Shown piece by piece: positions 7,025 to 37,633 of a stretch of 64,000 nt of DNA. Numbering within the stretch: position 1 is the first letter of the stretch; each line of letters begins with the position of its first letter. The translations under genes were made by a program, and so were the position numbers. The stretch is taken from assembly GCF_014193425.1 (NCBI RefSeq), contig NZ_JACHZG010000001.1, positions 1,860,001 to 1,924,000 of the forward strand, read 5' to 3'. Source of the stretch: Microlunatus antarcticus. GTDB taxonomy: Bacteria > Actinomycetota > Actinomycetes > Propionibacteriales > Propionibacteriaceae. The notes below the pieces were generated by a model, which saw only the letters and a program-made list of their open reading frames with translations, made no database searches and was not told the DNA's origin.

Positions 7025-7056
7025 CGCGGCTCATCCGCGGGTCGTCGCAGATCGGC

Positions 7057-7090: not shown

Positions 7091-7095
7091 ACCGT

Positions 7096-8451: not shown

Positions 8452-8460
8452 CGGTGGCTC

Positions 8461-9008: not shown

Positions 9009-9309
9009 ACCGCGAGCATACCCAGGTGGTATCGCGGCGACGGTCCGCAGAGAGGAGACGCGGCTCGCCCGGAGGTCGTGCGTCAGACTCAGGCGTGGTC
9101 GGCGACGTCGGCGAGAACGCGACCCCGCTCCGGCGGGATCGGTGCCCGAGGCTCCCTCGGGTGGCAGCAGGTCAACCCCGCAGCAGGTCGGCAGGTGCGC
9201 GACTGCGCTCCGCGCAGGTCGGCACCCGCTCGTGCAGGACTGGTCGTCCGGCGTCGCCGCCACACCCTCGCGGACGGCCGCGGAGGACCCGGCCGGGCAG
9301 GACTGCGCT
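9009..9309 (+). ncRNA. candidate msr-msd region of a retron (structured, non-coding)
   Basis: About 300 bases between the divergent antitoxin and reverse transcriptase genes hold no convincing gene. On the plus strand there are three stem-loops in a row: 9124-9137 (cccgc/gcggg), 9145-9161 (cccgagg/cctcggg, 3-base loop) and 9196-9216 (tgcgcg/cgcgca). An 11-base direct repeat (gcaggtcggca) occurs at 9183 and 9214. Retron non-coding RNAs sit just upstream of their RT and consist of such stems. I could not identify the flanking a1/a2 repeat or the branching G, so this is a positional and structural candidate only. The antitoxin promoter must also lie here. Confidence 0.4.
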
Positions 9310-10641
9310 GTGAGCCACCGCCCCGACGAGGGCCTCGCACGCGGCCTCGCCTGGGCGTTCCTCGCCGCAGATAGGTGGACCGCGCCCGCGCTCGTCGACG
9401 CGGCCGGGACCGCGCTCGGGCACCGCTACCGCTGGATGTCCGCACTGGTGCGGCAGGTGCTCGAGAACCACCGGTTCGCGCCGACCGACCGGCCGTACGA
9501 GCTGAGCCGCTTCCTGCTCGGGCGGACGGCGCTGGTCGAGCACGCCGAGCGGGCCGCGCAACGGGGCCGGGCGCTGCGGGTCGTGCGGATCTCGACCGTA
9601 GCCGGGGTGATGGGCGAACGCCGCTGGCCCGTGCCCGAGGTCCCCGACCTGCCGGCGCTGGCCGACCTCCTCGAGCTCCCGCTCGAGCAGCTCGACTGGG
9701 TGGTCGACGCCCGCGGTCTGTCTCGGCGGACCCCGGACGGGCCGTTCCACCTCCACCGGCACCGCTGGGTCGAGCGCCCGGGCGCCGTGCCCCGCCTGCT
9801 CGAGTCACCCACCCCGCTCCTGCGCGCCGTCCTGCGGCGGGTGCTCGACCGCGTCCTCGTCTGGGTGCCGGTGCACCCGGCCGCGCACGGCTTCGTCCGC
9901 GGCCGCAGCGCCGTCACGCACGCCCGGACCCACGTGGGCGCGGCGTCGGTCGTCTGCCTCGACCTGCGGTCGTTCTTCACCTCGATCACGGTCGGGCGCG
10001 TCAACGGCCTGTTCCGCGGCCTCGGCTACCCGGAGGCCGTCGCGTGGGCCCTGGCCTGCCTGTGCACGCACCAGACACCGGTCGCGGTGCTCGGCCGGAT
10101 GCCGCCCGGCGGGTCCGAGGCCGCCCGGGCGTGGCTGCGGTCCAGCCTTCGGGCCCGGCACCTCCCGCAGGGCGCTCCGACGTCACCCGCCCTGGCGAAC
10201 CTGGCCTGCTTCACCCTTGACCGGCGCCTGGCCGGGCTGGCGGCGACGGCCGGGCTGACGTACAGCCGGTACGCCGACGACCTCACGTTCTCCGGACCGC
10301 GGGGGAGCGCCCACCGCCTCGTCGCGTCGGTGGGGTCGATCGTGCGCGACGAGGGCTTCGACCTCAACCCGGCGAAGACGCGGGTGCGGGGGACGGGGGA
10401 GCGTCAGGAGGTCACGGGGCTGGTCGTGAACGAGCGGCTCAACGTCACCCGCGCCTACCACGACCAGCTGCGAGCCGTCCTGCACGACGCCACCCGGAAC
10501 GGTCCGTCCGCAGCCAACCGGGCCGACCACCCCGACTTCCGCTCCCACCTCGAGGGCCGCGTCGGGTGGGTCGAGTCGGTGAACCCGGTCCGCGGCCGGC
10601 GTCTGCGGGCCCAGCTCGACGCGATCGTCTGGCCCGGCTGA
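9310..10641 (+). CDS. retron-type reverse transcriptase
   Basis: An RNA-directed DNA polymerase of about 443 residues. The first 150 residues are a helical N-terminal extension of the kind seen on long myxobacterial and actinobacterial RTs. RT blocks follow in order: HPAAHGFVRGRSAVTHA, VVCLDLRSFFTSI (first Asp about 218), LPQGAPTSPALANLACF, YSRYADDLTFSG (YADD at about 321) and the VTG box EVTGLVVNERLNV that is typical of retron RTs. No maturase or endonuclease domain follows, which argues against a group II intron. GTG 9310 has AGGA upstream; an in-frame GTG at 9142 would add 56 non-conserved residues and cover the structured RNA region. No fused effector is seen. Confidence 0.85.
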   Translation: MSHRPDEGLARGLAWAFLAADRWTAPALVDAAGTALGHRYRWMSALVRQVLENHRFAPTDRPYELSRFLLGRTALVEHAERAAQRGRALRVVRISTVAGVMGERRWPVPEVPDLPALADLLELPLEQLDWVVDARGLSRRTPDGPFHLHRHRWVERPGAVPRLLESPTPLLRAVLRRVLDRVLVWVPVHPAAHGFVRGRSAVTHARTHVGAASVVCLDLRSFFTSITVGRVNGLFRGLGYPEAVAWALACLCTHQTPVAVLGRMPPGGSEAARAWLRSSLRARHLPQGAPTSPALANLACFTLDRRLAGLAATAGLTYSRYADDLTFSGPRGSAHRLVASVGSIVRDEGFDLNPAKTRVRGTGERQEVTGLVVNERLNVTRAYHDQLRAVLHDATRNGPSAANRADHPDFRSHLEGRVGWVESVNPVRGRRLRAQLDAIVWPG

Positions 10642-10655
10642 GCTCGTGCGCCGCC

Positions 10656-10973
10656 TCAGCCCGTGCGGGTCTCCGTGAGGTCGAGCTGGTCGAACCACGC
10701 GTAGAACTCGTCCTGGGCGGCGCTCATCGCCGCGTTCCCACGGTCGATGTCCTCGTCGCTCAGCGGGCGCCGACACAGGTGCGCCACGTACAGGGTGTCG
10801 AGGGGGTTCCACTCCAGCAGGTACTCGTCGAGGGTCACCACCACCTCGGCCAGGTGGTCGGCGCACACGGTCTGCTCGTGGCCGACGCTGATGGTCGACG
10901 TGTGGACGGCGGACAGGCTGAAGGCGGGCTCGTTGTCGCAGTCGGACAGGCAGCAGCGGGCGGTGTCGGACAC
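10656..10973 (-). CDS. small Cys/His-rich protein of unknown function
   Basis: A 105-residue acidic protein that I do not recognise. The N-terminal half has a likely zinc site: CCLSDCDNEPA, then HTS, then GHEQTVCADHLAE. The C-terminal half is helical and acidic with the end FYAWFDQLDLTETRTG. The GTG start follows a strong AGGAGA site six bases away, supporting a real gene. It converges on the reverse transcriptase, ending 14 bases after it. Whether it belongs with the RT or is a resident chromosomal gene cannot be told from this window. Confidence 0.7.
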   Translation of the reverse strand: MSDTARCCLSDCDNEPAFSLSAVHTSTISVGHEQTVCADHLAEVVVTLDEYLLEWNPLDTLYVAHLCRRPLSDEDIDRGNAAMSAAQDEFYAWFDQLDLTETRTG

Positions 10974-11086
10974 AGGTTCTCCTGGGGCTCGTCCCCGAGC
11001 CGGACCAGGTTATCGACCAGCCCGGGTCAGCCGCCGGTCTTTCGACGAGGTGCCGACGAGCGCGAGCCCGGCGAGGCACCCGGACA

Positions 11087-11112
11087 ACAAAAAACCCCCT
11101 GTGACCAGGGGG
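11087..11112 (-). terminator. rho-independent terminator of the tRNA operon
   Basis: Read on the minus strand, a 7-bp G/C stem (ccccctg / caggggg) with a 4-base loop is followed by a T-tract. It lies eight bases beyond the tRNA-Val gene and ends the Gly-Cys-Val tRNA transcript. Confidence 0.9.
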
Positions 11113-11119
11113 TTCCTCG

Positions 11120-11191
11120 TGGGCGATACTGGGATCGAACCAGTGACCTCTTCCGTGTCAGGGAAGCGCGCTACCGCTGCGCCAATCGCCC
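11120..11191 (-). tRNA. tRNA-Val (anticodon GAC)
   Basis: On the minus strand the gene starts gggcgat and closes with atcgccc, a perfect 7-bp acceptor stem, with discriminator A. The anticodon loop ctgacac gives GAC, and the T arm has ggttcgatccc. It is the last of three tRNA genes transcribed together. It is very similar to the tRNA-Val(CAC) gene on the opposite strand 1.2 kb away. Confidence 0.95.
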
Positions 11192-11192
11192 G

Positions 11193-11263
11193 AGGTGGAG
11201 ACGGGATTTGAACCCGTGTACACGGATTTGCAGTCCGTTGCCTCGCCTCTCGGCCACTCCACC
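11193..11263 (-). tRNA. tRNA-Cys (anticodon GCA)
   Basis: On the minus strand the acceptor stem is ggtggag / ctccacc with discriminator U. The anticodon loop ctgcaaa gives GCA, and the T arm carries ggttcaaatcc. It is the second gene in the three-tRNA transcript. Confidence 0.95.
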
Positions 11264-11306
11264 GGGGAACTACTTCTCCCCAACGGGGTGGGCGAGACTC
11301 GCTCCG

Positions 11307-11379
11307 AGCGGACGACGGGATTCGAACCCGCGACCCTCACCTTGGCAAGGTGATGCTCTACCAACTGAGCCACGTCCGC
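11307..11379 (-). tRNA. tRNA-Gly (anticodon GCC)
   Basis: On the minus strand the acceptor stem is gcggacg / cgtccgc with discriminator U. The anticodon loop ttgccaa gives GCC, and the T arm carries ggttcgaaccc. It is the first gene of the tRNA transcript. Confidence 0.95.
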
Positions 11380-11419
11380 GTTGCGACCTCCCCGGTTGCC
11401 CGGTGGGGTGCGAGAAAGG

Positions 11420-11449
11420 ACTCTAGCCGGACCCGAGCCGGGAAAACAA
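11420..11449 (-). promoter_or_regulatory. promoter of the Gly-Cys-Val tRNA operon
   Basis: On the minus strand TTGTTT is followed after 18 bases by TAGAGT. These are a fair -35 and -10 for the main sigma factor, about 40 bases upstream of the tRNA-Gly 5' end. The patch is notably A/T rich for this genome. Confidence 0.6.
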
Positions 11450-11521
11450 ACGCATCCGGCCCTGCGGCGCGCCCCGTGAGAGCGGCGGTCCGGCCCGTCC
11501 CCCGGCACCTAGGCTGTCGCG

Positions 11522-12385
11522 GTGCTGGACGAGACGGACGTGGACGCGGGCCCGAGCACCTCTCCGGTGATCTGGATCGACGGCACCCTGCACACCGACG
11601 CCCGGGAGGCGCGGATCGGGGCGACCGACCACGGTCTCGTCGTCGGCGACGGCGTCTTCGAGGCCCTGAAGGTCACGCCGGCCGGACCGTTCGCCGTCCG
11701 CCGCCACCTGGACCGGCTCGAGCGCTCGGCCGCGGCGATGGGGCTGCCCACCCCCGACCGCGGCACCGTCCTGGCCGGGATCGACGCGGTCCTGGCCGAC
11801 CGTCGGTTCGCCCAGGGCAAGGTCCGCATCACGTACACCGGGGGCGACGGCCCGCTCGGGTCGCAGGCCGCGTACGGCTCCCCGACGCTCGTCGTGGCGT
11901 CGGCCGCCACGACCGTGCCGCCGGCCAGCACCGACGTCGTCACCGCGCCCTGGCGGCGCAACGAGCACGGTGCCCTGACCGGCGTGAAGTCGACCTCGTA
12001 CGGCGAGAACGTGCGGGGGCTGGCGTACGCCACCGCCCTCGACTGCGGCGAGACGATCTTCCTCAACACGGCCGGGAACGTCTGCGAGGGCACGGGCACG
12101 AACGTCTTCTGCGTCTTCGGCGACGAGGTCGTCACGCCGCCGCTCAGCGCGGGGCCGCTGGCCGGCGTGACTCGTGACCTGCTCCTGGAGTGGACGCCCG
12201 TCGTCGAGCGGGACCTGACGCTGGAGGAGGCGCTGAGTGCGGACGAGGTCTTCCTGACGTCGTCGCTGCGCGACGTCCAGCTGGTCGAGCGCTGGGACGG
12301 CCACGCCTTCACCGGTCTCGGCGCCAGGACGGCCCGGCTGGTGGCGCTGTTCGCTGCTCGGTCGGGTGCGGACCTCGACCCCTGA
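11522..12385 (+). CDS. pabC: aminotransferase class IV, probable 4-amino-4-deoxychorismate lyase
   Basis: A 287-residue fold-type IV PLP enzyme. The N-terminal IDGTLHTDAREARIGATDHG and GDGVFEALKV motifs and the PLP lysine in TGVKSTSYGE (Lys about 156) fit the family. The late motif FLNTAGNVCEGTGTNVFCV is the usual class IV signature. The size and the GDGVFE start resemble aminodeoxychorismate lyase, which makes p-aminobenzoate for folate. D-amino-acid or branched-chain aminotransferase remain possible, as the class is hard to split by eye. The gene lies alone between tRNA genes, with a GTG start. Confidence 0.8.
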   Translation: MLDETDVDAGPSTSPVIWIDGTLHTDAREARIGATDHGLVVGDGVFEALKVTPAGPFAVRRHLDRLERSAAAMGLPTPDRGTVLAGIDAVLADRRFAQGKVRITYTGGDGPLGSQAAYGSPTLVVASAATTVPPASTDVVTAPWRRNEHGALTGVKSTSYGENVRGLAYATALDCGETIFLNTAGNVCEGTGTNVFCVFGDEVVTPPLSAGPLAGVTRDLLLEWTPVVERDLTLEEALSADEVFLTSSLRDVQLVERWDGHAFTGLGARTARLVALFAARSGADLDP

Positions 12386-12421
12386 TCGTCGGGTAAGGTG
12401 GCGTCCGCCCTGCGGGGCTCG

Positions 12422-12493
12422 GGGCGATTGGCGCAGTGGTAGCGCGCTTCGTTCACACCGAAGAGGTCACTGGTTCGAACCCAGTATCGCCCA
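12422..12493 (+). tRNA. tRNA-Val (anticodon CAC)
   Basis: The acceptor stem gggcgat / atcgccc has discriminator A. The anticodon loop ttcacac gives CAC, and the T arm has ggttcgaaccc. A TAAGGT sequence at 12394-12399 could be its -10 box. It differs from the tRNA-Val(GAC) at 11120 at only a handful of positions, mostly in the anticodon arm. Confidence 0.95.
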
Positions 12494-12539
12494 CCCCGAT
12501 CTCCACACCCGGTCCTGCGGACCCGGTCCGACAGCCCCC

Positions 12540-12893
12540 TCAGGGCCTTCGCGAACGCGGCAGACGAGCCACGACGTACGCGTACGAGTCGTCAATGAGC
12601 TCGGCCAGGTCGTCGTCAGACATCGTGCCGTCGACGCGGAAGCTGTTCCAGCCGGCCCGGGCCAGGTAGGGCATCGGCGTCGCGGAGCCCGGGAACCGCT
12701 CCAGCGCGAGGTCGGCGGACTCGCGGTCCCCGCACTTCAGCCCGATCGTCGTCGGGACGTCCCCGGGTTGCTGGAGGGAGCCGAGGAACGCGAAGATCTT
12801 CGGCCCGACCTTGACCACGACCGTGTCGTGCCACGGCTCGTCGCGCCACGCGCCCGGCTTGCCCAGGCAGTACGCGAGCCAGCCGGAACCCAT
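12540..12893 (-). CDS. MmcQ/YjbR family protein
   Basis: A 117-residue protein with the YjbR fold. Typical features are LGKPGAWRDEPWHDTVVVKVG, then KIFAFLG, LKCGD and the late GWNSFRVDGTMSDDDLAELI. These small proteins are often called DNA-binding, but their function is not firmly known. The ATG start at 12893 gives the usual family length. It faces the tRNA-Val gene and diverges from thrS. Confidence 0.85.
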   Translation of the reverse strand: MGSGWLAYCLGKPGAWRDEPWHDTVVVKVGPKIFAFLGSLQQPGDVPTTIGLKCGDRESADLALERFPGSATPMPYLARAGWNSFRVDGTMSDDDLAELIDDSYAYVVARLPRSRRP

Positions 12894-12971
12894 GCGTCCG
12901 AGCCTCCCACCGCGCGCCGGGACCGAAACCGTCAGGGGCCGACCGGTCCCGGGGAATAGTCTGGGCGGCGC

Positions 12972-12989
12972 GTCGCGGGCTCCCGCGAC
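12972..12989 (+). promoter_or_regulatory. leader hairpin upstream of thrS
   Basis: A perfect 8-bp inverted repeat (gtcgcggg / cccgcgac) with a 2-base loop lies 24 bases before the thrS start, just upstream of its AGGAGG site. A TAGTCT at 12957 may be the -10 box, which would put the hairpin at the 5' end of the transcript. No T-box features are present. Confidence 0.4.
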
Positions 12990-13013
12990 CGTCTCCAGGA
13001 GGTCAGAACCACT

Positions 13014-15008
13014 GTGCCCGACACCCCGTCCCCGTCCGCGCCCAGCGACGACCAGGCGAGCGGCACGACCACGGGCCTGACCCTCTTCGGCGACGACAAG
13101 CGTGTCGTCGCGGTCCGCGTGGACGACGAGCTCCGCGACCTCAGCCGCCCGGTGCCCGACGGCGCGGACGTCGAGCCGGTCCTGATCGACAGCCCCGACG
13201 GCCTCGCGATCCTGCGGCACTCGGCCGCGCACGTCGCCGCGCAGGCCGTTCAGCAGCTGCACCCCGAGGCGAAGCTGGGCATCGGACCGCCGATCACCGA
13301 CGGCTTCTACTACGACTTCGACCTGGCCGAGCCCTTTACGCCCGAGGCGCTGCGCGAGGTCGAGAAGGTCATGCAGCGCATCGTCAAGGAGCGTCAGCGG
13401 TTCCGCCGCCGCGAGGTCAGCGACGAGGAGGCGGTCGCCGAGCTCGCCGACGAGCCGTTCAAGCTCGAGCTGATCGCCGACAAGGGCTCCGCGGGCGACA
13501 CGATCGTGCACGTCGGCGACGGGGACGGCTCCGGCGACGCGTCGTCGGTCGAGGTCGGCGCCGGCCAGCTGACGATCTACGACAACCTCAAGCGCGACGA
13601 CTCGGTGGCCTGGTTCGACCTGTGCCGGGGCCCGCACGTCCCGCACACCGGCTACATCCCCGCCTTCTCGATCACCCGCAGCTCCGCGGCCTACTGGCGC
13701 GGCGACCAGGCCAACCAGCAGCTGCAGCGCGTGTACGGGACCGCGTGGACGAGCCGTGACGAGCTCAAGGCGTACGAGTTCCGGCTCGCGGAGGCCGCGC
13801 GTCGCGACCACCGCAAGCTCGGCGCCGAGCTCGACCTGTTCTCGTTCCCCGACGAGCTGGGCTCCGGCCTGCCCGTGTTCCACCCCAAGGGCGGGGTGAT
13901 CAAGCGGGAGATGGAGGACTACGTCCGCCGCCGGCACATCGAGGAGGGCTTCGACTACGTCGGCACCCCGCACATCAGCAAGGAGGGGCTCTTCCACACC
14001 TCCGGGCACCTGCCGTACTACAAGGACACGATGTTCCCGCCGATGGAGCTCGAGGGGTCGAGCTACTACCTCAAGGCGATGAACTGCCCGATGCACAACC
14101 TGATCTTCCGCGGCCGCGGGCGGTCCTACCGCGAGCTGCCGCTGCGCTTCTTCGAGTTCGGCAGCGTCTACCGCTACGAGCGGTCGGGCGTCGTGCACGG
14201 GCTGACCCGGGTGCGGGGGCTGACGCAGGACGACTCGCACTCGTACGTGACCCCGGAGCAGGCGCCGGGGGAGATCAAGCACCTGCTCGACTTCGTGCTC
14301 GGGCTGCTGCGCGACTTCGGCCTCGACGACTACTACCTCGAGCTCTCCACCCGTGGTGACTCGGACAAGTTCATCGGCTCCGACGAGGAGTGGGCGGCCG
14401 CGACCGCGGTGCTCGAGGAGGTCGCGCTGGCCTCCGGCGTCGCCCTCGTCCCCGACCCGGGCGGTGCGGCCTTCTACGGCCCGAAGATCTCGGTCCAGGC
14501 CCGCGACGCGATCGGGCGCACCTGGCAGATGTCGACCATCCAGCTCGACTTCAACCAGCCCGCGCGGTTCGGTCTGGAGTACCAGGCCGCCGACGGCACC
14601 CGCCAGCAGCCGGTGATGATCCACTCGGCCAAGTTCGGGTCGATCGAGCGCTTCATCGGCGTCCTCGTCGAGCACTACGCGGGCGCGTTCCCGCCCTGGC
14701 TGTCGCCCGTCCAGGTCGTCGGCATCCCGGTGGCGGGGGAGTACGTGCCCTACCTCGTCGAGGTGGCCGACCGGCTGCGCACCGCCGGGATCCGGGTCGA
14801 GGTCGACGACAGCGACGACCGCATGCAGAAGAAGATCCGCAACGCGCAGAAGGAGAAGGTCCCCTTCATGCTCATCGCGGGGGCCGACGACGTGGCGGCC
14901 GGTGCGGTGTCGTTCCGCTACCGCGACGGCACGCAGAAGAACGGCGTGCCGGTGGAGGAGGCGATCCGCGAGATCGCCGACGCCGTCGCCGCGCGCGTCC
15001 AGGTCTGA
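13014..15008 (+). CDS. thrS: threonine--tRNA ligase
   Basis: A 664-residue class II aminoacyl-tRNA synthetase that charges tRNA-Thr. After a TGS domain come the editing-domain motifs [16 protein letters not shown] and [14 protein letters not shown]. The catalytic core has MNCPMHN (zinc Cys at about 358), [20 protein letters not shown] and LTQDDSHSY. The C-terminal anticodon-binding domain includes [12 protein letters not shown]. The GTG start follows AGGAGGT. It heads a run of genes that continues into phosphatidylinositol mannoside synthesis, an order also seen in mycobacteria. Confidence 0.98.
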
Positions 15009-15019
15009 GGCGGGGGACC

Positions 15020-15631
15020 GTGCCAGACGAGGTGGAGGTCGTGGTCGAGCCATCGGGCCAGAGGCCGGGTGACCCCGACGGGTTCGAGCGGCTCTGGACG
15101 CCGCACCGGATGGTCTACATCGGCGGGCAGGACAAGCCGGCGACGCCGGACGCCGCGGACTGCCCGTTCTGCACGCTCCCGAAGCGCTCCCCGGAGCGGG
15201 ACCGCGAGTCGCTGATCGTGCACCGCGACGAGGTCGCGTACGTCGTGCTGAACCTCTACCCGTACTCGCCGGGGCACCTGCTGGTGTGCCCCTACCGTCA
15301 CGTCGCCGACTACACCGACCTGACCGAGGCCGAGACGCACGCCGTCGCGCGGCTGACGCAGCAGTGCATGCGCGTCGTGCGCGAGGCGAGCGCACCGCAC
15401 GGCTTCAACCTGGGCCTCAACCAGGGGGCGGTCGCCGGGGCCGGCATCGCCGCGCACCTGCACCAGCACGTCGTCCCGCGCTGGGCCGGGGACGCGAACT
15501 TCCTCCCCGTGATCGGCCAGACCAAGGCCCTCCCGCAGCTCCTCGACCAGACCTGGCAGGTCGTCACCGACGCGTGGGCGCGGCTCTCCGCCCCCGAGAC
15601 GGCGCCCGTCGCCGCGCCCGGGGAGGCCTGA
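15020..15631 (+). CDS. HIT-family AP4A phosphorylase-like protein
   Basis: A 203-residue histidine-triad protein. A CPFC zinc knuckle is followed by the HIT core VLNLYPYSPGHLLVCPYRHV and the catalytic triad AAHLHQHVVPRW (His 146/148/150). The mycobacterial homologue in the same position (Rv2613c) is a diadenosine tetraphosphate phosphorylase, which fits here by length and synteny. The GTG start lies 12 bases after thrS, and the stop overlaps the next start by one base (TGATG). Pairing with thrS makes sense, because aminoacyl-tRNA synthetases produce AP4A. Confidence 0.9.
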   Translation: MPDEVEVVVEPSGQRPGDPDGFERLWTPHRMVYIGGQDKPATPDAADCPFCTLPKRSPERDRESLIVHRDEVAYVVLNLYPYSPGHLLVCPYRHVADYTDLTEAETHAVARLTQQCMRVVREASAPHGFNLGLNQGAVAGAGIAAHLHQHVVPRWAGDANFLPVIGQTKALPQLLDQTWQVVTDAWARLSAPETAPVAAPGEA

Positions 15632-29956: not shown

Positions 29957-31054
29957 CTACGCCCCCTCGGTCGTGAGGCTGCGGTATAGGTCGAGGTGCT
30001 GGTCGGCAGCGGCGCGCCAGGTGTGACGCAGGGCCAGCTCCGCCCCGCCCGGCAACGGGCCGTCGGCGACGGCAGCCAGCAGGGCGGCGGCGATGCCCGG
30101 CGCGTCCTCGCCGTAGCGGACGTGCTCGCCGAACACTTCCCGCAGGACCGGCAGCGGCCGGGCGACCACGGGAACGCCGGCGGCCAGCGCCTCCATGGCC
30201 GCGAGACCGAACCCCTCCTTGGTCGAGACGAACCCCAGGGCGGCGCAGCCGGCGACCAGCCCGGGCAGGACGTCGTGGTCGACCGGGCCCAGCACGTGGG
30301 CCTCGACACCCAGCTCGACGGCCCGCGCGTCGAACGCCGCGCGGTAGTCGCGGTAGTCGAACAACGTCTCGCCACCGGCGACGACCAGCTCCAGGTCGGG
30401 CAGCGTCCGCCGCGCGACCGCGAACGCCTCGAGCAGGTCGAGCGTCCCCTTGCGGGGCTCGATCCCGCCGACCGCGAGCACGTAGCGCCCGAACCGGCCG
30501 CGCCACGGGGCCGAGGCCGCCGGGTCGAGCGCCGCGGCGGCGAACCGGGCGGCGTCCACACCGTTCGGGATCACGACGGGGTGCAGGCCCCAGCCCGCCG
30601 TCACCTCGGTCGCGACGGCCGCCGAGACGCAGACGTGGGCGTGCGGGCGGACGATCGCGCGCTCGTGGCAGGCGACGAGCTCGGGCGTCGTGAACTGGTC
30701 GAGGTGGTGGATCGTCCGCACGCACCGGGGCACCGCGTTCGCGCTGATGCAGTCCTGCGCGTGGACGACGTCGTACGCGGTCCCCGCCGCGACCCGCTCC
30801 GCAAAGGCCGCGCCCAGGACCCCGATCGAGCGCACGATGCGGTCGCCGACGGTCTCACCCTCGAGGTGAGGCAGAGGGACGACCTCGACGTCCACCCGAG
30901 GGTCGACGCGGCGGAAGAAGCCGTCGTCTCCGCCGCGGCCCAGGGTCCACACGCTCACGTCGACACCGAGCTCGACGAGGGCCTCGGCGAGCGCGAGGGT
31001 GTGCACGACCCCGCCCCGGGGCTTGGTCGAGTAGGTCAGCAGCGCGACCCTCAC
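29957..31054 (-). CDS. MSMEG_0565-family glycosyltransferase (Nit1C-type cluster)
   Basis: A 365-residue GT4 glycosyltransferase, last gene of the eight-gene cluster. The N-lobe starts VRVALLTYSTKPRGGVVHTL. DVVHAQDCISANAVPRCVRT and IPNGVDAARF follow, and the C-lobe has GGIEPRKGTLDLLEAF and STKEGFGLAAMEALAAGVPV. This matches the glycosyltransferase subfamily found only in nitrogen-starvation nitrilase clusters. Its GTG overlaps the stop of the gene before it (GTGA). The sugar and acceptor are unknown. Confidence 0.85.
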   Translation of the reverse strand: MRVALLTYSTKPRGGVVHTLALAEALVELGVDVSVWTLGRGGDDGFFRRVDPRVDVEVVPLPHLEGETVGDRIVRSIGVLGAAFAERVAAGTAYDVVHAQDCISANAVPRCVRTIHHLDQFTTPELVACHERAIVRPHAHVCVSAAVATEVTAGWGLHPVVIPNGVDAARFAAAALDPAASAPWRGRFGRYVLAVGGIEPRKGTLDLLEAFAVARRTLPDLELVVAGGETLFDYRDYRAAFDARAVELGVEAHVLGPVDHDVLPGLVAGCAALGFVSTKEGFGLAAMEALAAGVPVVARPLPVLREVFGEHVRYGEDAPGIAAALLAAVADGPLPGGAELALRHTWRAAADQHLDLYRSLTTEGA

Positions 31055-31908
31055 TGGTCCGCCACCGCGTATGCGGCCGGGCGCCGCTCGACGAGGTGGT
31101 GGAGCACCCGTCGGGCCCGGGCGACCTCGGCCTCGACGTCCAGCTCGACGGAAGCCATCCCGCCCTTCGACCCGGTCCGGGCCAGCGTCTGGCCCCCGGG
31201 CCCGACGACCTTGGCCTGACCGAGGAACCGCAGGTCGCCGAACACGCCGGTCTGGTTGGACGAGACCCAGACGATCTGGTTCTCCGCGGCCCGGGCGGCG
31301 TCGTAGATGTCGAACAGCCGCGACTGCCGGTCGTCGGTCAGCCGCGCGGCACGGTTGGTGACGTTGGCGGGCCAGGCCGACAGCGCGGCGACGAGCTGAG
31401 CGCCGTCGAGGGCCAGCGCCCGGGACGACTCCGGGAACGTCTTGTCGTAGTCGATCAGCAGGCCCATCCGCCCGACCGGGGTGTCGAAGGCGGCGAACCG
31501 GTCGCCCGCCGCGTACGCCGCCTGCTCGCCCAGGGGCTGGTGGACCTTGCGGTGCCGCCCCAGCACGCCGTCGCCGGTGACGCAGACCGCCGTGTTGTAG
31601 CGGAGCCCGTCCTCCAGCTCGCAGAGGCCGAGGCAGACGACGAGGTCGCCCGCGAGGGCGCACACGCGACGGACGACGTCCGCGTCCAGCGCGAAGGCGG
31701 GCGGGAGGTCCTGGACGTCGGGCTCGCGTGCGGGCGCAGTGGTCCACGGTCGCTGCAGGTCCGGCACGTAGCCGCCGAGGGTGGCCCCCGGCAGCACGAG
31801 GAGGTCGACCCCGTCGCGCCGCGCGCCGTCGAGCATCGCCCCGAGCTTGCCCAGGGTCCGCTCGACGTCGCGACCGAAGTGAGCCGCGACGGCGCCGATC
31901 CGGGTCAC
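31051..31908 (-). CDS. nitrilase-superfamily homologue lacking catalytic Glu and Cys
   Basis: A 285-residue carbon-nitrogen hydrolase fold closely related to the nitrilase encoded 1.6 kb upstream in the same operon. The Lys of the triad is kept (HRKVHQPLGE, Lys 121). The catalytic Glu is replaced by Gly (LVLPGATLGG, residue 41) and the catalytic Cys by Asp (LLIDYDKTF, residue 153). The intact paralogue has LVLPEACLGG and MLICYDKAF at these places. Reading frame and codon use look normal, so this is not a decaying gene. It is probably a pseudoenzyme or a structural partner, or it has a changed activity. It is coupled to both neighbours by GTGA overlaps. Confidence 0.85.
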   Translation of the reverse strand: MTRIGAVAAHFGRDVERTLGKLGAMLDGARRDGVDLLVLPGATLGGYVPDLQRPWTTAPAREPDVQDLPPAFALDADVVRRVCALAGDLVVCLGLCELEDGLRYNTAVCVTGDGVLGRHRKVHQPLGEQAAYAAGDRFAAFDTPVGRMGLLIDYDKTFPESSRALALDGAQLVAALSAWPANVTNRAARLTDDRQSRLFDIYDAARAAENQIVWVSSNQTGVFGDLRFLGQAKVVGPGGQTLARTGSKGGMASVELDVEAEVARARRVLHHLVERRPAAYAVADQ

Positions 31909-33200
31909 GACGTCAGGCGGAGCCGCACCGGCGGCCGGAGCGTCTCGACCACGTGGTCGACCACGTGCTCGGCGTCCCGGGTCAGGCCGGCGAAGCGGCC
32001 CGAGCCCCAGGTGTGCAGCCACGGCAGCCCGAGGAAGTGCAGGCCGTCGACGGCGGTGACGCCACGGTGGTGCCCGACCGTGCCCCGGCCGTCGAAGACC
32101 GGCACGCGCACCCAGCGGAAGTCGGGCACGAAGCCGGTCGCCCAGACGACGGAGGTCACGCCGGCGTCCTCGAGGTCGAGCGACGTCGGCTCGGAGTCGG
32201 GCCGCCAGACCGGGGTGTAGCGCTCCTCGAGGGGCGCGTCGAGTCCGAGTCGGGCGACGTGCCCGTCGATGGCGTCCTTGATGTCCTCGGCCACGCGGTC
32301 CGCGCGGTCGAGCGACGCCTCGAGCGTGGGAGCGAAGGCGAGCCGCGGGCCGGCGACGTCGACGAGCCGGCCGTAGAGCCCCATGCCCTCGAGCGCGAAC
32401 CGGCGCAGGTCGATGTCGTGGCCGCCGTCGCGACCGGTCATGTAGTGGTTCGTCTTCTCGCGCTCGCGCAGGCCGCCGGGGGAGTCCTCGACGGCGACGT
32501 CGTAGAGGCCCATCTCCTCGAGCCAGTCGATCGAGTCCCGTCCGCGGTAGCGGCGGGCGCAGCGCGGCGCCGACCCGACGACCAGGTGCACCTGCCGCCC
32601 GGCCAGGTGGAGGTCCTCCGCGATCTGGGCGCCCGACTGGCCCGTGCCCACCACGAGCACCGCACCCGCAGGGAGGCTCTCCGGGTTCTTGTAGGCCGAG
32701 GAGTGCACCTGCGTGACTCCGGCCGGCAGGCGTTCCGCCAGCCGCGGGACCTTGGGGTCGTGGTAGCCGCCCACGGCCACGACGACCTGCTCGGCCGCCA
32801 GCGTCGCCGGCCCCTCGGGCGTCTCGAGCTCGAGCACGAAGCCGCCGCCGTCGTCCTGACGGAGCTCGCGCACCGTCGTGCGCTCGCGCAGCGGGGGAGC
32901 CGTGCGGCGGACGTACTCGGCGAGGTAGGCCGAGGTCTCGTCGCGGGTCATGAAGCCGTACGGCTGGTCGCCCGGGTAGGGGAAGCCGGGGAGCCGGCAC
33001 TGGACGTTGGGCGTGACGAGGGTGAAGGAGTCCCAGCGCTGGTCGTGCCACGCGTGCGCCGCGGTCTGCCGCTCGAGGACCACGTGCTCGAGGCCGGCCT
33101 GCGCGAGGAACCAGCTCGCGGTGAGGCCCGCCTGCCCCCCGCCGATGACCGCGACCTCCACCCGCTCGACGGGTCCGGCGCCCGGGAGGCGGGCGCTCAC
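31905..33200 (-). CDS. MSMEG_0569-family flavin-dependent oxidoreductase
   Basis: A 431-residue flavoprotein monooxygenase-like protein. The FAD site is VAVIGGGQAGLTASWFLAQ (residues 16-34). A second dinucleotide site is VLVVGTGQSGAQIAEDLHLA. TPNVQCRLPGFPYPGD and a late ATGFVPDFRWVRVP are also present. It belongs to the Nit1C set (often called NitH). It probably oxidises a small substrate using NADPH and oxygen; the substrate is not established. Start and stop overlap neighbours by four bases each. Confidence 0.87.
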   Translation of the reverse strand: MSARLPGAGPVERVEVAVIGGGQAGLTASWFLAQAGLEHVVLERQTAAHAWHDQRWDSFTLVTPNVQCRLPGFPYPGDQPYGFMTRDETSAYLAEYVRRTAPPLRERTTVRELRQDDGGGFVLELETPEGPATLAAEQVVVAVGGYHDPKVPRLAERLPAGVTQVHSSAYKNPESLPAGAVLVVGTGQSGAQIAEDLHLAGRQVHLVVGSAPRCARRYRGRDSIDWLEEMGLYDVAVEDSPGGLREREKTNHYMTGRDGGHDIDLRRFALEGMGLYGRLVDVAGPRLAFAPTLEASLDRADRVAEDIKDAIDGHVARLGLDAPLEERYTPVWRPDSEPTSLDLEDAGVTSVVWATGFVPDFRWVRVPVFDGRGTVGHHRGVTAVDGLHFLGLPWLHTWGSGRFAGLTRDAEHVVDHVVETLRPPVRLRLTS

Positions 33201-33505
33201 GACGCGCTCCCGGTGAAGGGGTGGGCCGGCGGGTCGAACGCCACGACCGTGACGAGCCCCTCGGGCTGGTCGGCGGCGGCGAGCCGGATGGTGTCCATCG
33301 AGGCCCGCGCCGCGGTGCACGGGCGGCCCCAGCGGGCCTCGACCCGGTCGCTGGCCTGCGTGAGCGCCGTCGTGGCCCGGTCGACGAAGTCGGCGACCTC
33401 GTACGACGCCCCGGCCTGGAGGTGGTCGTGGACCACCAGCGAGGGCGAGTAGGTCTGCAGGGACCGGCCGTCGGGCCAGCGGGTGGTAAAGGTCAGCTCA
33501 GGCAT
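33197..33505 (-). CDS. MSMEG_0570-family nitrogen-starvation response protein
   Basis: A 102-residue protein starting MPELTFTTRWPDGRSLQTYS, with the conserved segment LQAGASYEVADFVDRATTAL. Small proteins of this type are known almost only from this cluster and have no assigned function. No metal-binding motif or membrane segment is seen. It overlaps the nitrilase before it by eight bases and the oxidoreductase after it by four. Confidence 0.82.
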   Translation of the reverse strand: MPELTFTTRWPDGRSLQTYSPSLVVHDHLQAGASYEVADFVDRATTALTQASDRVEARWGRPCTAARASMDTIRLAAADQPEGLVTVVAFDPPAHPFTGSAS

Positions 33506-34424
33506 GGACGGGCTCTCGCTCGGAGGGGTAGTTCGGGAGCACCGCGTCGAGCCGGTACGCGCCCGGCCGGCGGTCGCGCAGCGCGTACATGCCCTGGCGC
33601 ACGGCGGCCAGCTCGGCGTGGACGTCGAGGGTGACCGTGGCCAGCCCGCCCTCGACGCCGGTCTCGGCCCGCACGTCGCCGCCCGGGCCGACGATCTTGG
33701 CGTTGCCGACGAAGCGCAGCGAGCCGAAGGTGCCGGTCTGGTTGGACGCCGCCCAGACCACCTGGTTGTCGAGCGCGCGGGCCGCGTCGTAGAGGTCGAA
33801 GCGCTTCTTCCAGCGGTCGTCCTCGATGCGGTCGGCCGCGGCGGTCCGCGCGGTCGGCCAGGCGGACAGCGCGGCGATGATCTCGGCCCCGTCGAGGGCG
33901 AGCGTCCGCGAGGCCTCGGGGAACGCCTTGTCGTAGCAGATGAGCATCCCGATCCGTCCGACCGGGGAGTCGAAGGCCTCGAAGGCGGAGGCGGCGGAGT
34001 AGCTGAGGTTCTCCCCGAGCGGCTGGTGGACCTTGCGGTGCGCGGCCAGGACGCCGTCGCCGGTGACCGCGACGGCGGTGTTGTAGCGGACCACCCGCCC
34101 GTCGGCGTCCAGCTCGTCCGCGGCCGCCTCGCACATCCCGAAGAGCACGGTCATGTCGCCCGCCAGGGCTCGCACGCGCGCCACCTCGGGGCCGTCGACG
34201 CGGAACGCGGGGGGCATGTTCCGGCGGCGCCGGGCCCGCGTCTCCTCGTCGTCGTCGACGCTGCCGAGGCTCGGCAGGTAGCCGCCGAGGCACGCCTCGG
34301 GCAGCACCAGCAGGTCGGTGCCGCGGGCCCTGGCCTCGGTGACGATGCGGTCGATCGTCGCGTACGCGGCCTCGAGGTCGCGTCCGAACTCGTCGGCGAC
34401 GACGGTGATGGTGGTCTGGCTCAT
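33498..34424 (-). CDS. Nit6803-type nitrilase
   Basis: A 308-residue nitrilase of the sll0784/Nit6803 type. The Glu-Lys-Cys triad is intact: LVLPEACLGG (Glu 43), HRKVHQPLGE (Lys 131) and MLICYDKAFPE (Cys 163). Nitrilases turn R-CN into the acid and ammonia, so it would release nitrogen from nitriles. In Nit1C clusters it is the signature gene and has been linked to growth on cyanide in pseudomonads. ATG is coupled (ATGA) to the GNAT-AIRS gene. Confidence 0.92.
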   Translation of the reverse strand: MSQTTITVVADEFGRDLEAAYATIDRIVTEARARGTDLLVLPEACLGGYLPSLGSVDDDEETRARRRRNMPPAFRVDGPEVARVRALAGDMTVLFGMCEAAADELDADGRVVRYNTAVAVTGDGVLAAHRKVHQPLGENLSYSAASAFEAFDSPVGRIGMLICYDKAFPEASRTLALDGAEIIAALSAWPTARTAAADRIEDDRWKKRFDLYDAARALDNQVVWAASNQTGTFGSLRFVGNAKIVGPGGDVRAETGVEGGLATVTLDVHAELAAVRQGMYALRDRRPGAYRLDAVLPNYPSEREPVHA

Positions 34425-35842
34425 GCGGGTCCTAGTCCGGTGACGGGAGAGGTGAGAGCGGTGGTCGAGCGGCCGTCAGGCCAGCGCAGGCGTACGCCGG
34501 GGTCGTCCGTGAGTGCGCCGCAGGCCCGGCTCGTGGCGGGACCGGCCGGTGCGGAGGCACGGCCGGGGACGTCGGCCGTGAGCATCGCGAAGCCCGGGAA
34601 GCAGGTGAGCCAGTCGCCCGTGGTCGCGCCCTCGGGAGCCGGGACGTCGGCGACGTCGAGCTCGGCGCCGCAGCCGCTGGCCTCGGCCAGCATCCCGAGC
34701 GTCCCGACGAGCCCGGCCATGCTCACGTCCTTGGCCGCCGCCGGCCGGGTGCGGCCGACGAACGAGCCGAGGGCCTGGAGCTCGGTGGTGGTCCGTCCGC
34801 TCGTCGAGTCCCACTGCGCCCCGGTGTAGCCGGGTCGCCAGCCGCCGCCGAGGTCGGCGGTGACGGTCACCGAGTGGCCCGGCTGCCCGCCGCCGGCCGG
34901 GACCGGCGTGGAGGTGCGTCCGAGGGCCGTGACCGACAACGACGCCGGTACGCCGAGCTGGGTGTGGCCCCCGAGCACCGGCACGTCCCAGGCCTGCGCG
35001 GCGGCGGCGACACCGCGGACGACCCGGCTGGCGAAGCTCGTGTCCCGGGCGCCGAGGGCGTCGAGCAGCGCGACGGGGGTGGCGCCCATGGCGGCGAGGT
35101 CGTTGAGGTTGACGAGCACGGCGCACCAGCCCGCCCAGGTCGGGTCGCGCTCGACCATCGACGGCAGGATCGCGTCGGTCGCGGCCACGAGGTCGGAGCC
35201 GGGCACCGGAGCGGCGTCGTCACCGACGAACCCGGTTCCGCCCAGCCCGTGCGGGCCGGTGGCGAGGGGCGCGAGCAGCGGGCCGAGCGGGCTCTTCGTC
35301 CGGGCGGCGAGGCGGGCGATGCGGTCGACGGGCCACGTCATCAGGACGTGCGGGTGGCCGTACGCGTCCTCGTCCGCGAGCCGGTCCCAGCCGAGCCGGC
35401 GGAAGAGCGGGGCGTTCGCCCGCTGCACGTGGGCGTCGAAGCGCAGCACGCCGAGCCGCTCCGCGTGGGCGCAGGCCGCGCGGACGAGCGCCGCGCCGAC
35501 CCCGGCGGTGTGGCCACGGGAGGCCCGGGTGACGGCCAGCCGGCTGCCGACCCACCAGCCGAGGTCGCGTCCGTTCGTGGCGGGCGCCAGGCGGACGGTG
35601 CCAACGACCGTGCCGTCGGTGTCCTGCGCGACCAGCGTCAGGGCTCGGGAGTCGTCGTCGACCTCGTCGTGGTCGGAGCCCGCGAACAGGCCCTGCTCGG
35701 TCACGAAGGTCTCGTGCCGCAGGCGTCGGGCCGCCTCGAGGACCCGCCCGCCCTCGGCCACGGCCACCGTGAAGGCGGGCGTGGCCGGTCGAGCGGCGGC
35801 GCGGGTCAGCAGCTCGACGTCGAAGACCGACACGGAGGACAC
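34421..35842 (-). CDS. fused GNAT acetyltransferase and AIR-synthase-like protein (sll0786-sll0787 type)
   Basis: A 473-residue two-domain protein. Residues 1 to about 170 are a GNAT acetyltransferase of the MSMEG_0567 type (RLRHETFVTEQGLF, TRASRGHTAGVGAALVRAA, FRRLGW). From about 180 to the end it is an AIR-synthase/PurM-like ATP-binding domain (GFVGDDAAPVPG, NLNDLAAMGATPVALLDALG, GGHTQLGVPASLSVTALG, KDVSMAGLVGTL). In Synechocystis these are separate neighbouring genes. The reading frame is open through the junction, so the fusion is real unless the assembly is wrong. The start is GTG; it abuts the radical SAM stop. Confidence 0.87.
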   Translation of the reverse strand: MSSVSVFDVELLTRAAARPATPAFTVAVAEGGRVLEAARRLRHETFVTEQGLFAGSDHDEVDDDSRALTLVAQDTDGTVVGTVRLAPATNGRDLGWWVGSRLAVTRASRGHTAGVGAALVRAACAHAERLGVLRFDAHVQRANAPLFRRLGWDRLADEDAYGHPHVLMTWPVDRIARLAARTKSPLGPLLAPLATGPHGLGGTGFVGDDAAPVPGSDLVAATDAILPSMVERDPTWAGWCAVLVNLNDLAAMGATPVALLDALGARDTSFASRVVRGVAAAAQAWDVPVLGGHTQLGVPASLSVTALGRTSTPVPAGGGQPGHSVTVTADLGGGWRPGYTGAQWDSTSGRTTTELQALGSFVGRTRPAAAKDVSMAGLVGTLGMLAEASGCGAELDVADVPAPEGATTGDWLTCFPGFAMLTADVPGRASAPAGPATSRACGALTDDPGVRLRWPDGRSTTALTSPVTGLGPA

Positions 35843-36898
35843 CTAGGCCCCCTGCTGCTTGAGCGTGCTGCAGGCGCCGCAGGCCGCGCAGCCCGCGGAC
35901 TGGCCGTCCGAGGTCATGCCAGCGGCCACGAGGTCGCGGGCGACCCGCCGGGTCACGTCCTCGAGCACGGCCGCGTCCGGCGCGGTCGCGCCGTCGGCGG
36001 AGGCCAACGTCCCGGCGAGGGGCCGGAACGGCACCACGAATGGGTAGACGCCCATCGCGATGAGTTCGCGGGCCCCGGCGACGAGCTCGTCGGGGTCCTC
36101 GCCCAGGCCGACGAGCAGGTAGGTCGACACCTGGTTGCGGCCGAAGACGCGCACGGCCTCGGCCCACGCGGCGCGGTACTCGGTCAGCGGCACCCGCGAC
36201 TTGCCCGGCATCCAGCGGCGGCGTACGTCGTCGTCCAGCGACTCGACGTGGATGCCGATCGCGTCCGCGCCCGCCTCGCGCAGCTCGGTGATCGTGACCA
36301 GGTCGCCCGGAGGCTCGCACTGCACCTGGATCGGCAGGTCGGGCACCCGGGCCTTGACCGCCCGGACGCAGCGCGCCAGGTGGGTCGCGCCCCGGTCGCG
36401 GCCGGCCGAGGTGCCGGTCGTCATGACCATCTGCCGCACCCCGTCCAGGCGCACGGCCGCCTCGGCGACCTCCGCGAGGTCGTACGGACGCTTGACCGCG
36501 ACCGTCGAGCCGGCCTCGAGCGAGGCCTCGATGGCGCAGAAGCGGCACCGTTCCGCGGCGTCGTAGCGGATGCAGGTCTGCACGACGGTGGTTGCGAGGA
36601 CGTCGCGCCCGTGGAGGCGGGCGAGCATCTCGTACGAGGTGCCGTCCGCCGTCGCGAGGTCGTAGAAGCGCGGCCGCCGCACCGGCGCGACCTCGGCGTC
36701 CTCGACGACGAACCCGTCGCGCATCAGCCGGTCGCCGTCGAGCCAGTACGGGCTGGCGTCGTTCAGCGGGACGGCGACGCTCGCACCGTCGAGCACCAGG
36801 TGCCCGTCGGCGCTCGGCCCCGCCCCGGCAGGCCGGCTCACCGAAGTCCCGCCGCGGATGCCCAGGATCGCGAGGTCGACCCGCGTCGTGACGCTCAT
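35843..36898 (-). CDS. MSMEG_0568-family radical SAM protein
   Basis: A 351-residue radical SAM enzyme. The cluster motif is a wider C-x8-C-x2-C (Cys 109, 118, 121; TCIRYDAAERCRFCAIE) in place of the usual C-x3-C-x2-C. GTHLARC, VQCEPPGDLVTITELREAGA and GIHVESLDDDVRRRW match the barrel of the biotin-synthase-like group. The C-terminus has a further C-x2-C-x2-C (Cys 337, 340, 343), possibly for a second iron-sulfur cluster. It is a fixed member of Nit1C clusters. The reaction is not known. Confidence 0.88.
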   Translation of the reverse strand: MSVTTRVDLAILGIRGGTSVSRPAGAGPSADGHLVLDGASVAVPLNDASPYWLDGDRLMRDGFVVEDAEVAPVRRPRFYDLATADGTSYEMLARLHGRDVLATTVVQTCIRYDAAERCRFCAIEASLEAGSTVAVKRPYDLAEVAEAAVRLDGVRQMVMTTGTSAGRDRGATHLARCVRAVKARVPDLPIQVQCEPPGDLVTITELREAGADAIGIHVESLDDDVRRRWMPGKSRVPLTEYRAAWAEAVRVFGRNQVSTYLLVGLGEDPDELVAGARELIAMGVYPFVVPFRPLAGTLASADGATAPDAAVLEDVTRRVARDLVAAGMTSDGQSAGCAACGACSTLKQQGA

Positions 36899-36923
36899 GC
36901 CCGTCCTCCGGCCGCCGGGCCCG

Positions 36924-37448
36924 TCAGACCATGTAGGTGGAGTTGATGACGGCGCCCTTGTTGGCGAAGTAGATGAGCGCGTCCTGCACGTCGAGCGGGT
37001 GGCAGGGGATCGTCCCCGGCATCAGGTCCTCCTCGCGCAGGCCGTGCAGCGAGAGGCCGAAGCGGCAGACGAAGACGTGCCCGCCCTCGTCCATGAACGT
37101 CTGCAGCGTGTTGTTGATGTTCTGCTCGCCCGGGAAGGCGGAGTCGCCGGTGGTCGGGAAGCCGCGCGTGGCGATGGCGTTCATCGAGCCGGGGCCGTAG
37201 AAGTAGACGACCGAGTCGAAGCCCTTGCGCAGCGCGCGCAGGGCCTGCAGGCAGGCGACGAAGCTGACGCTCGACTCGTGCGCGATGCCGTGGACGAGGG
37301 TCAGGTAGGACTGGCCGGGCTCGGCCTGGATGTCGGGGAAGATCTTGGTCGACCCGTAGATCGAGCTCCCCTTCTCCAGCGAGGGGTGCGGGATCTCGTT
37401 GCGGGAGGTCTCGATCTTGGCGAGGATGTCGTCGTCGAACAGCGGCAC
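36924..37448 (-). CDS. MSMEG_0572/sll0783-family nitrogen-starvation protein
   Basis: A 174-residue protein, first gene of the cluster. Conserved stretches are SSIYGSTKIFPDIQAEPGQ, LTLVHGIAHESSVSFVACLQ, YFYGPGSMNAIATRGFP and VFVCRFGLSLHGLREEDL. The layout of strands resembles DsrE/F-like proteins, but that is a guess. Homologues are known from nitrogen-starvation regulons. The GTG start is preceded by AGGAG at seven bases. A 25-base gap separates it from the radical SAM gene. Confidence 0.87.
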   Translation of the reverse strand: MPLFDDDILAKIETSRNEIPHPSLEKGSSIYGSTKIFPDIQAEPGQSYLTLVHGIAHESSVSFVACLQALRALRKGFDSVVYFYGPGSMNAIATRGFPTTGDSAFPGEQNINNTLQTFMDEGGHVFVCRFGLSLHGLREEDLMPGTIPCHPLDVQDALIYFANKGAVINSTYMV

Positions 37449-37501: not shown

Positions 37502-37533
37502 TCCGACCTCTCCTTCGATCCTGCGGCCGGAGC

Positions 37534-37550
37534 GATTCCAAGCCGGTTAC
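37534..37550 (-). promoter_or_regulatory. possible GlnR-type box upstream of the Nit1C-type operon
   Basis: On the minus strand GTAAC-cggctt-GGAAT matches a GTNAC-N6-GAAAC half-site of the actinobacterial nitrogen regulator GlnR with one or two mismatches. Another GTTAC lies about 30 bases upstream (37577-37581). Only a candidate; the match is imperfect. Confidence 0.35.
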
Positions 37551-37633
37551 GTCAGGAACAAGCCCCGATGACGGCGGTAACAGTCGTGTCGCGTACGACT
37601 CACTCGTGGGCTCGGCGTCCGTGAGCATGTGGT

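Follow-up and report, generated by a model that had tools for sequence, protein, structure and literature searches.

Why should one operon encode two nitrilase-fold proteins, one of which lacks the nucleophile of a nitrilase? The question is raised by a gene cluster in a 64,000-nucleotide stretch of the Microlunatus antarcticus genome (contig NZ_JACHZG010000001.1, positions 1,860,001 to 1,924,000; hereafter the window), whose list of open reading frames (ORFs) contains eight consecutive minus-strand ORFs running from a GTG start at 37448 to a stop at 29957. Two of these genes encode nitrilase-superfamily proteins that are 55% identical over 287 columns. For this analysis we call them Nit-Cys (nitrilase 1) and Nit-Asp (nitrilase 2); the names NitA and NitB were avoided because the Pseudomonas papers give them to other proteins. 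The two genes and the codons in question are:

33498..34424, minus strand: Nit-Cys, a nitrilase-superfamily enzyme with an intact triad, E43, K131 and C163 (PF00795, E 4e-35)
33936..33938, minus strand: codon TGC of the catalytic Cys163 of Nit-Cys, read from the sequence and the alignment column
31051..31908, minus strand: Nit-Asp, the second nitrilase-fold protein, without the nucleophile (G41, K121, E128, D153; PF00795, E 5e-30)
31450..31452, minus strand: codon GAC of Asp153 of Nit-Asp, at the catalytic Cys position, read from the sequence and the structure alignment
31786..31788, minus strand: codon GGG of Gly41 of Nit-Asp, at the catalytic Glu position, read from the sequence and the alignment column

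Nit-Asp has the PF00795 nitrilase fold without the Glu-Lys-Cys triad. Throughout its clade the Lys is kept, the Cys has given way to Asp (97/97) and the Glu is replaced (97/97). These proteins come from 118 loci: a first set of 94, made up of the window, 13 relatives and 80 database loci, and 24 more. The 80 database loci are the best 80 of at least 477 confirmed matches; they lean to near relatives, include many close kin and are not independent. In the first set, all 90 Nit-Asp proteins carry Asp at the catalytic Cys position, the Lys and the second Glu are conserved in 90/90, and the Glu position holds D in 79, G in 5, H in 5 and N in 1. The E-K-E-C set of Nit-Cys is complete in 89 of 90 proteins, the remaining one being cut by a contig end. 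The further 24 loci supplied nine proteins closest to Nit-Asp, seven with Asp (Glu position D in six and Q in one; second Glu kept in six and Asp in one) and two, L186 and L190, with Cys. The latter branch outside the Nit-Asp clade, among four stand-alone proteins with intact triads, and the clade count of 97 is the 99 proteins labeled Nit-Asp by best BLAST hit minus these two. The control was an alignment of 21 further nitrilase-superfamily proteins from the phylum; the Cys is present in 21/21 and the full E-K-C set in 20, with a gap in the Glu column in one. Asp153 aligns with the Cys of structures 1j31 and 3ivz and, in the C146A amidase 6ypa, with the Ala introduced by mutation; a sequencing error at this position was ruled out because the identical residue occurs in 97 sequences. 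The twins differ at six further positions that are at least 90% fixed (Nit-Cys/Nit-Asp: W205/Q195, R208/L198, A226/S216, V239/L229, M279/L269 and D284/E274). Judging from these residues, Nit-Asp is in all probability not a Cys-type hydrolase.

In a tree of 70 rows, all 33 Nit-Asp rows included form one clade (bootstrap/Shimodaira-Hasegawa-like approximate likelihood ratio test support 100/98). Its probable sister is the group of intact-triad stand-alone proteins, with a support of 94/85 that is not starred. The Nit-Cys rows do not form one clade, and L187 and L189 were nearer Nit-Asp in the first tree, which had long outgroup branches and was rebuilt with two outgroup rows; the trees include 33 of the 97 Nit-Asp sequences. 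On the simplest reading, the Cys-to-Asp change would have happened once, early in actinobacterial history. The stand-alone intact-triad nitrilases L186, L188, L190 and L191 come from three genomes of other families in the phylum and one more, and their loci yielded no further gene of the cluster.

Ratios of nonsynonymous to synonymous substitution (dN/dS, Nei-Gojobori count) against the two nearest genus-mates (L017 and L016) are 0.21 and 0.20 for Nit-Asp, 0.18 and 0.14 for Nit-Cys, and 0.26 and 0.23 for the flavoprotein encoded between them; against four more distant relatives they are 0.25-0.40 for Nit-Asp and 0.34-0.59 for Nit-Cys, with silent-site saturation lowering their certainty. Residue conservation and dN/dS rule out a decaying pseudogene: Nit-Asp is under purifying selection, and it is very probably selected for a function of its own. 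AlphaFold2 models of both proteins are nitrilase folds (mean predicted local distance difference test score 94.9 for Nit-Asp and 94.1 for Nit-Cys). The closest solved structures are the Pyrococcus horikoshii amidase PH0642 (1j31; C146A mutant 6ypa), whose two entries lie closest to Nit-Asp, and the plant N-carbamoylputrescine amidohydrolase (5h8i). Nit-Asp is 20-24% identical to these structures, and differs from them in that its Cys is naturally Asp, whereas their Cys-less entries are engineered mutants. Relatives on Rhodococcus plasmids were found in four records at E 1e-30, three of which annotate Nit-Asp as a carbon-nitrogen hydrolase, the fourth carrying no annotation; no relative was found among the viral contigs searched. 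In the open-licence literature we found no publication on a Cys-less nitrilase in the cluster. The cluster is of a known kind, and the conserved Cys-to-Asp twin is new as far as could be checked.

What kind of cluster this is follows from the other genes, of which the first five listed precede Nit-Asp and the last follows it, Nit-Cys standing fourth in the order of transcription:

36924..37448, minus strand: first gene, DsrE-like protein of the MSMEG_0572/Sll0783 family (TIGR04044, 238 bits; cut-off 110)
35843..36898, minus strand: radical SAM protein of the MSMEG_0568 family, with CX8CX2C and a C-terminal CX2CX2C (TIGR04043, 509 bits; cut-off 304)
34421..35842, minus strand: GNAT-AIRS fusion of the MSMEG_0567 family, start GTG at 35842 or 35833 (TIGR04045, 110 bits, cut-off 68; TIGR04050, 494 bits, cut-off 312)
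33197..33505, minus strand: small protein of the MSMEG_0570 family (TIGR04042, 104 bits; cut-off 80)
31905..33200, minus strand: flavin-dependent oxidoreductase (flavoprotein) of the MSMEG_0569 family (TIGR04046, 619 bits; cut-off 498)
29957..31054, minus strand: last gene, glycosyltransferase family 4 (GT4) protein of the MSMEG_0565 family, overlapping Nit-Asp by 4 bases (TIGR04047, 432 bits; cut-off 260)

The initial annotation had placed an operon of eight coupled genes at 29957-37448, and its coordinates are exact. The coupling, too, is borne out: after a gap of 25 bases between the DsrE and radical SAM genes and one of 0-9 bases (depending on the start) before GNAT-AIRS, the genes overlap by 4, 8, 4, 4 and 4 bases, so that an overlap is seen at five of the seven junctions. 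All families listed there are present, except that GNAT and AIRS are one ORF (TIGR04045 covers residues 24-169 and TIGR04050 residues 175-470), which reduces the eight functions listed to seven genes; the eighth gene, the second nitrilase-fold gene at 31051-31908 (Nit-Asp), had been missed. The profile search proposed at that stage was run on the window proteins, and seven NCBIfam models match above cut-off in six genes, covering the MSMEG_0565, 0567, 0568, 0569, 0570 and 0572 families. The sll0783-0787 marker set, also claimed, does not hold: the Nit6803 nitrilase model TIGR04048 reaches 32 bits against a cut-off of 502.6, and the sll0787 model TIGR04049 reaches 177 bits against 321 on the window AIRS, which passes TIGR04050 instead. 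Across the aligned sequences, the Cys of the DsrE motif CRFGLSL is conserved in 106/106, the six radical SAM Cys in 109/109 and the Asp, His and Lys of the AIRS motifs in 108/108. The complete eight-gene set is found in 75 of the 118 loci examined, the window included, a recurrence far beyond chance, and the operon, which recurs widely in actinobacteria, is almost certainly of the actinobacterial MSMEG_0565-0572 (gpr) type.

In the gpr cluster of Mycobacterium smegmatis the gene families are the same as here (PMC6039565, PMC4222082). Ten mycobacterial loci all encode both nitrilase types, E-K-E-C and D-K-E-D, and nine of the ten show the gene order implied by the M. smegmatis locus numbers. 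That order differs from ours: here the radical SAM and GNAT-AIRS genes precede Nit-Cys, whereas in M. smegmatis, by locus numbers, they follow the flavoprotein. MSMEG_0566, called an aliphatic amidase in M. smegmatis, corresponds by position to Nit-Asp. According to PMC6039565, nitrogen removal induces the gpr operon more than 500-fold by way of GlnR, and the operon is required for resistance to peroxide and for keeping the NADPH/NADP ratio high; induction of these genes and GlnR binding in M. smegmatis are also described in PMC4222082 and PMC3662644. The proposed response to nitrogen starvation thus agrees with these reports on M. smegmatis.

The operon had also been labeled Nit1C and linked to cyanide utilization. 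It shares with Nit1C (Synechocystis sll0783-0787, Pseudomonas nitABCDEFGH) homologous DsrE, radical SAM, GNAT, AIRS, small protein and flavoprotein genes, and this homology favors a cluster that enables the use of cyanide or nitriles. It differs in lacking a subfamily-1 nitrilase, in having instead two nitrilases of another branch, in its fused GNAT and AIRS, and in an extra glycosyltransferase, although a glycosyltransferase is inserted in Nit1C of Burkholderia and Rubrivivax too (Podar 2005, PMC1199592). The same paper states that Nit1C occurs strictly with one group of nitrilases within subfamily 1; the Pseudomonas cyanide phenotype is reported to rest on the nitrilase NitC (PMC11049912, PMC6368324), a part missing from the operon. 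To TIGR04048 the two window nitrilases score 32.3 and 32.2 bits, and none of the 14 genomes searched encodes a protein over its cut-off (best 41.3 bits in the window's genome and 263 bits, in G076, among the 13 relatives); three relatives encode proteins of 200-263 bits elsewhere in the genome. Because neither the cluster nor the genome encodes the defining nitrilase by the curated cut-off, the operon is not Nit1C, use of cyanide through a Nit6803 nitrilase is rejected on these scores, and the cyanide link is left unsupported; a Nit1C function in cyanide or nitrile use is very unlikely. The initial annotation had left the product of the radical SAM, GNAT and AIRS steps without assignment, and in the open-licence literature we likewise found no publication naming the pathway product. 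An early suspicion that the Nit1 product is a cyanobacterial natural product was dropped after the literature search listed papers that, by their titles and abstracts, concern cyanobactin peptides and cyanobacterial genomes.

How the two nitrilases are placed among their neighbors bears on their roles. Sixteen gene orders were detected in the 94 loci of the first set, some of them caused by contig ends, and because the order varies in this way, constant neighbors carry information. In 94 of 97 cases Nit-Asp is immediately followed by the glycosyltransferase gene, and the two reading frames overlap in 48 of these, to judge from homology starts; the exceptions are L124, where the glycosyltransferase lies on the other side of Nit-Asp, L184, and the lone gene L181. 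Nit-Cys is directly upstream of a Nit-Asp-labeled protein in 7/99; its own downstream neighbor is the small protein or flavoprotein gene in 94/111, the MSMEG_0570 gene coming next in 78/111. By these adjacency counts the cluster looks like three units: the core (DsrE, radical SAM, GNAT-AIRS), Nit-Cys with the small protein and flavoprotein, and Nit-Asp with the glycosyltransferase. Among 394 genomes of the class that were searched, 49 gave matches at E 1e-60, two each in 32 genomes and a single one in 17; residues were checked in nine of these 17, eight of which are of the Nit-Cys type and one a lone Nit-Asp (G513).

As for Nit-Cys, it should hydrolyze a C-N bond, and the kind of bond may be narrowed by comparison. 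Among solved sequences, the 29 closest to Nit-Cys include 13 N-carbamoyl amidohydrolases and eight named amidases (together 21/29), and its structure neighbors are similar to its sequence neighbors. A third type of cluster is also informative. It comprises L028 (G001, a genus-mate of the window; 3144-15593) and 11 relatives, three of the 12 loci being shorter than the rest (3.7, 10 and 12 kb). L028 encodes DsrE, radical SAM, GNAT, AIRS, a CoA-disulfide-reductase-like protein, an FdrA-like protein, carbamate kinase and a glycosyltransferase. Across the 12 loci, radical SAM is found in 12, DsrE in 11, GNAT in 11 and a separate AIRS in 10, with the FdrA-like gene in seven, carbamate kinase in eight and the CoA-disulfide-reductase-like gene in eight; none has a Nit-Cys, flavoprotein or small protein above 60 bits, and no nitrilase was found in L028. 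In Escherichia coli, FdrA is described as one of three transcarbamylase subunits, in an operon that also encodes carbamate kinase (PMC11326118). If the FdrA/carbamate kinase module and the Nit-Cys module do the same job, then the cleaved bond may be a carbamoyl (ureido) bond. That the Nit-Cys substrate is of the carbamoyl type can be put forward only tentatively, yet the comparison gives a first handle on the kind of bond cleaved by the pathway.

The third-type loci hold further genes. L211 and L213 both have an Amidohydro_2 gene, and L213 has a PuuR-like regulator. Coenzyme M biosynthesis genes lie beside the core in two of the 12 loci (L028:12545-15593 and L208:12080-14915); those of L028 score 339 bits against 150 for XcbA and 600.2 against 600 for XcbD, with a ComA-like protein at 239 under its cut-off of 280. 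It is possible that the third-type core is linked to a small thiol cofactor, and the association could be chance.

The explanation that we consider best, and to which we give about an even chance as a whole, is that of a gpr-type operon with a hydrolytic Nit-Cys and a non-hydrolyzing Nit-Asp that serves the glycosyltransferase. The core proteins DsrE, radical SAM and GNAT-AIRS would build an amide-type or N-carbamoyl (ureido) intermediate, and Nit-Cys would hydrolyze its C-N bond and free ammonia for assimilation. Nit-Asp, an ancient paralogue of Nit-Cys, would bind ligands of the same class but not hydrolyze them by a Cys-based mechanism, and would assist the neighboring glycosyltransferase as a subunit for binding or regulation. 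Constant adjacency suggests the glycosyltransferase, rather than Nit-Cys, as its partner, a pairing that we rate a little short of even. Nitrilases with a mutated Cys have been crystallized with ligand (6ypa, 5ny7 and 5h8l, by their entry titles); since such engineered proteins hold ligand, a natural Cys-less member could bind the intermediate without cleaving it. Nit-Asp might even represent a new functional class among nitrilase-fold proteins, in a lineage that replaced its catalytic Cys with Asp once and retained the change across actinobacterial families; it would act either as a subunit that binds an amide or ureido intermediate and passes it on to the glycosyltransferase, or as a carboxylate-based enzyme itself, although we think this rather less probable than not. 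If this were true, the operon would make a glycosylated nitrogen compound in starvation and would not simply degrade nitriles.

Several observations weigh against this explanation. Nit-Cys scores best against a nitrilase model, at 82 bits (cut-off 500), closely followed by N-carbamoylputrescine amidase at 80 bits (cut-off 410), and the carbamoyl inference is weak because Nit-Cys passes no family cut-off. The FdrA-like protein lies below its own cut-off (388 against 433 bits), in a comparison that involved no systematic search for the E. coli partner genes of FdrA. Nit-Cys occurs alone in 16 of 49 genomes, by score, with residues confirmed in 8 of the 16. Nit-Asp is thus dispensable to the cluster, of which it is the usual accessory and not an indispensable part. 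The glycosyltransferase occurs without Nit-Asp in nine loci with core and Nit-Cys, and in L028; the nine include L114, only possibly a Nit-Asp-less cluster, since its contig stops 282 bases past the glycosyltransferase. In three genomes the Nit-Cys/flavoprotein unit stands at a locus separate from Nit-Asp, and L181 (G513, 9342-10205) is a lone Nit-Asp in a genome without the radical SAM gene, its neighbors being a ChrB-like protein, an aldose epimerase and a Na/H exchanger. The idea that Nit-Asp never occurs apart from the cluster is refuted by G513, and together with the three separate loci this gene means that its tie to the pathway is not absolute.

Two other roles for Nit-Asp have to be weighed. 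It might be a pseudoenzyme subunit of Nit-Cys, in a hetero-oligomer whose Cys-less chain sets activity or shape, by analogy with the trypanosome S-adenosylmethionine decarboxylase (AdoMetDC), which is paired with its dead paralogue prozyme (PMC6221367). The 55% identity of the twins and their co-occurrence in 32 of 49 genomes would fit such a complex; the rarity of direct succession (7/99), the separate loci in three genomes and the frequent occurrence of Nit-Cys alone do not, and we consider it unlikely. Nit-Asp might instead be an active enzyme with new chemistry, in which Asp153 together with D41, K121 and E128 acts as a carboxylate nucleophile, an acid/base or a metal site. This would account for the invariance of Asp153, for K121 and E128 in 90/90, for Asp as the commonest residue at the Glu position (79/90), and for Q195, L198 and S216, which are unlike Nit-Cys and at least 99% fixed. 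However, the residue at the Glu position varies, with Gly in the window's genus and H, N or Q in other proteins, which a catalytic carboxylate there would not tolerate, L192 has Asp in place of Glu128, and no precedent was found in the literature searched, so that this alternative is quite improbable. For the preferred explanation, in which Nit-Asp binds and does not hydrolyze, there is a consequence for nitrogen studies, where MSMEG_0566 is counted among the C-N hydrolases (PMC4617892, PMC6039565): as far as its residues tell, the gene annotated as an amidase (MSMEG_0566/Nit-Asp) most likely cannot hydrolyze C-N bonds by the nitrilase mechanism, and a non-hydrolyzing Nit-Asp would correct pathway models.

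Six loci without Nit-Asp (L173, L174, L175, L176, L177 and L180) are also without the MSMEG_0569-type flavoprotein, and have about 1.7-2.1 kb between Nit-Cys and the glycosyltransferase; in L174 (9769-11322) this gap holds a 517-residue flavin adenine dinucleotide (FAD) protein, weakly like known FAD families and unrelated to the MSMEG_0569 flavoprotein.

Is the operon also regulated like its mycobacterial counterpart? With the GlnR consensus of PMC3662644, an exact GlnR-like motif lies upstream of the DsrE gene in 32 of 87 loci, where single-base shuffles, used as control, lead one to expect 3.3, with a maximum of 8 in 50 shuffles. Here and in the read-through counts below, loci with genes missing, on the opposite strand, more than 900 bases apart (6 loci) or near a contig end were left out. 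The window's own upstream region is without the exact motif, its aligned site having one mismatch:

37533..37581, minus strand: upstream block conserved in the window and four genus-mates (L016, L017, L018 and L020), with the GlnR-like, one-mismatch site GTAAC-n6-GGAAT

GlnR-type control of the operon, to the extent that such motifs predict it, is likely.

For MSMEG_0571 it was proposed that its UGA is read as selenocysteine to give a nitrilase-flavoprotein fusion (PMC6039565). Traced upstream, the flavoprotein frame of the window has no stop before the TGA of Nit-Cys, and the genome has a SelA gene, as such read-through of the Nit-Cys stop codon would lead one to expect. However, only 40 of 92 nitrilase-flavoprotein pairs have an open frame, in one case with a nitrilase that ends in TAG, while 32 have an in-frame stop and 20 lie in other frames; a conserved fusion is therefore unlikely. 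In addition, TGA is the commonest stop in all eight genes, and the MSMEG_0570 gene that follows Nit-Cys in most loci counts against a fusion with the flavoprotein. Selenocysteine read-through as a conserved feature was rejected on the 40/92 count, despite SelA, and such reading of the Nit-Cys stop is extremely improbable.

At the far end of the operon, a convergent plus-strand ORF, encoding a penicillin-binding protein judging by its letters and without a search, ends at 29953, with 3 bases between it and the operon stop at 29957, which leaves no space for a separate terminator between them.

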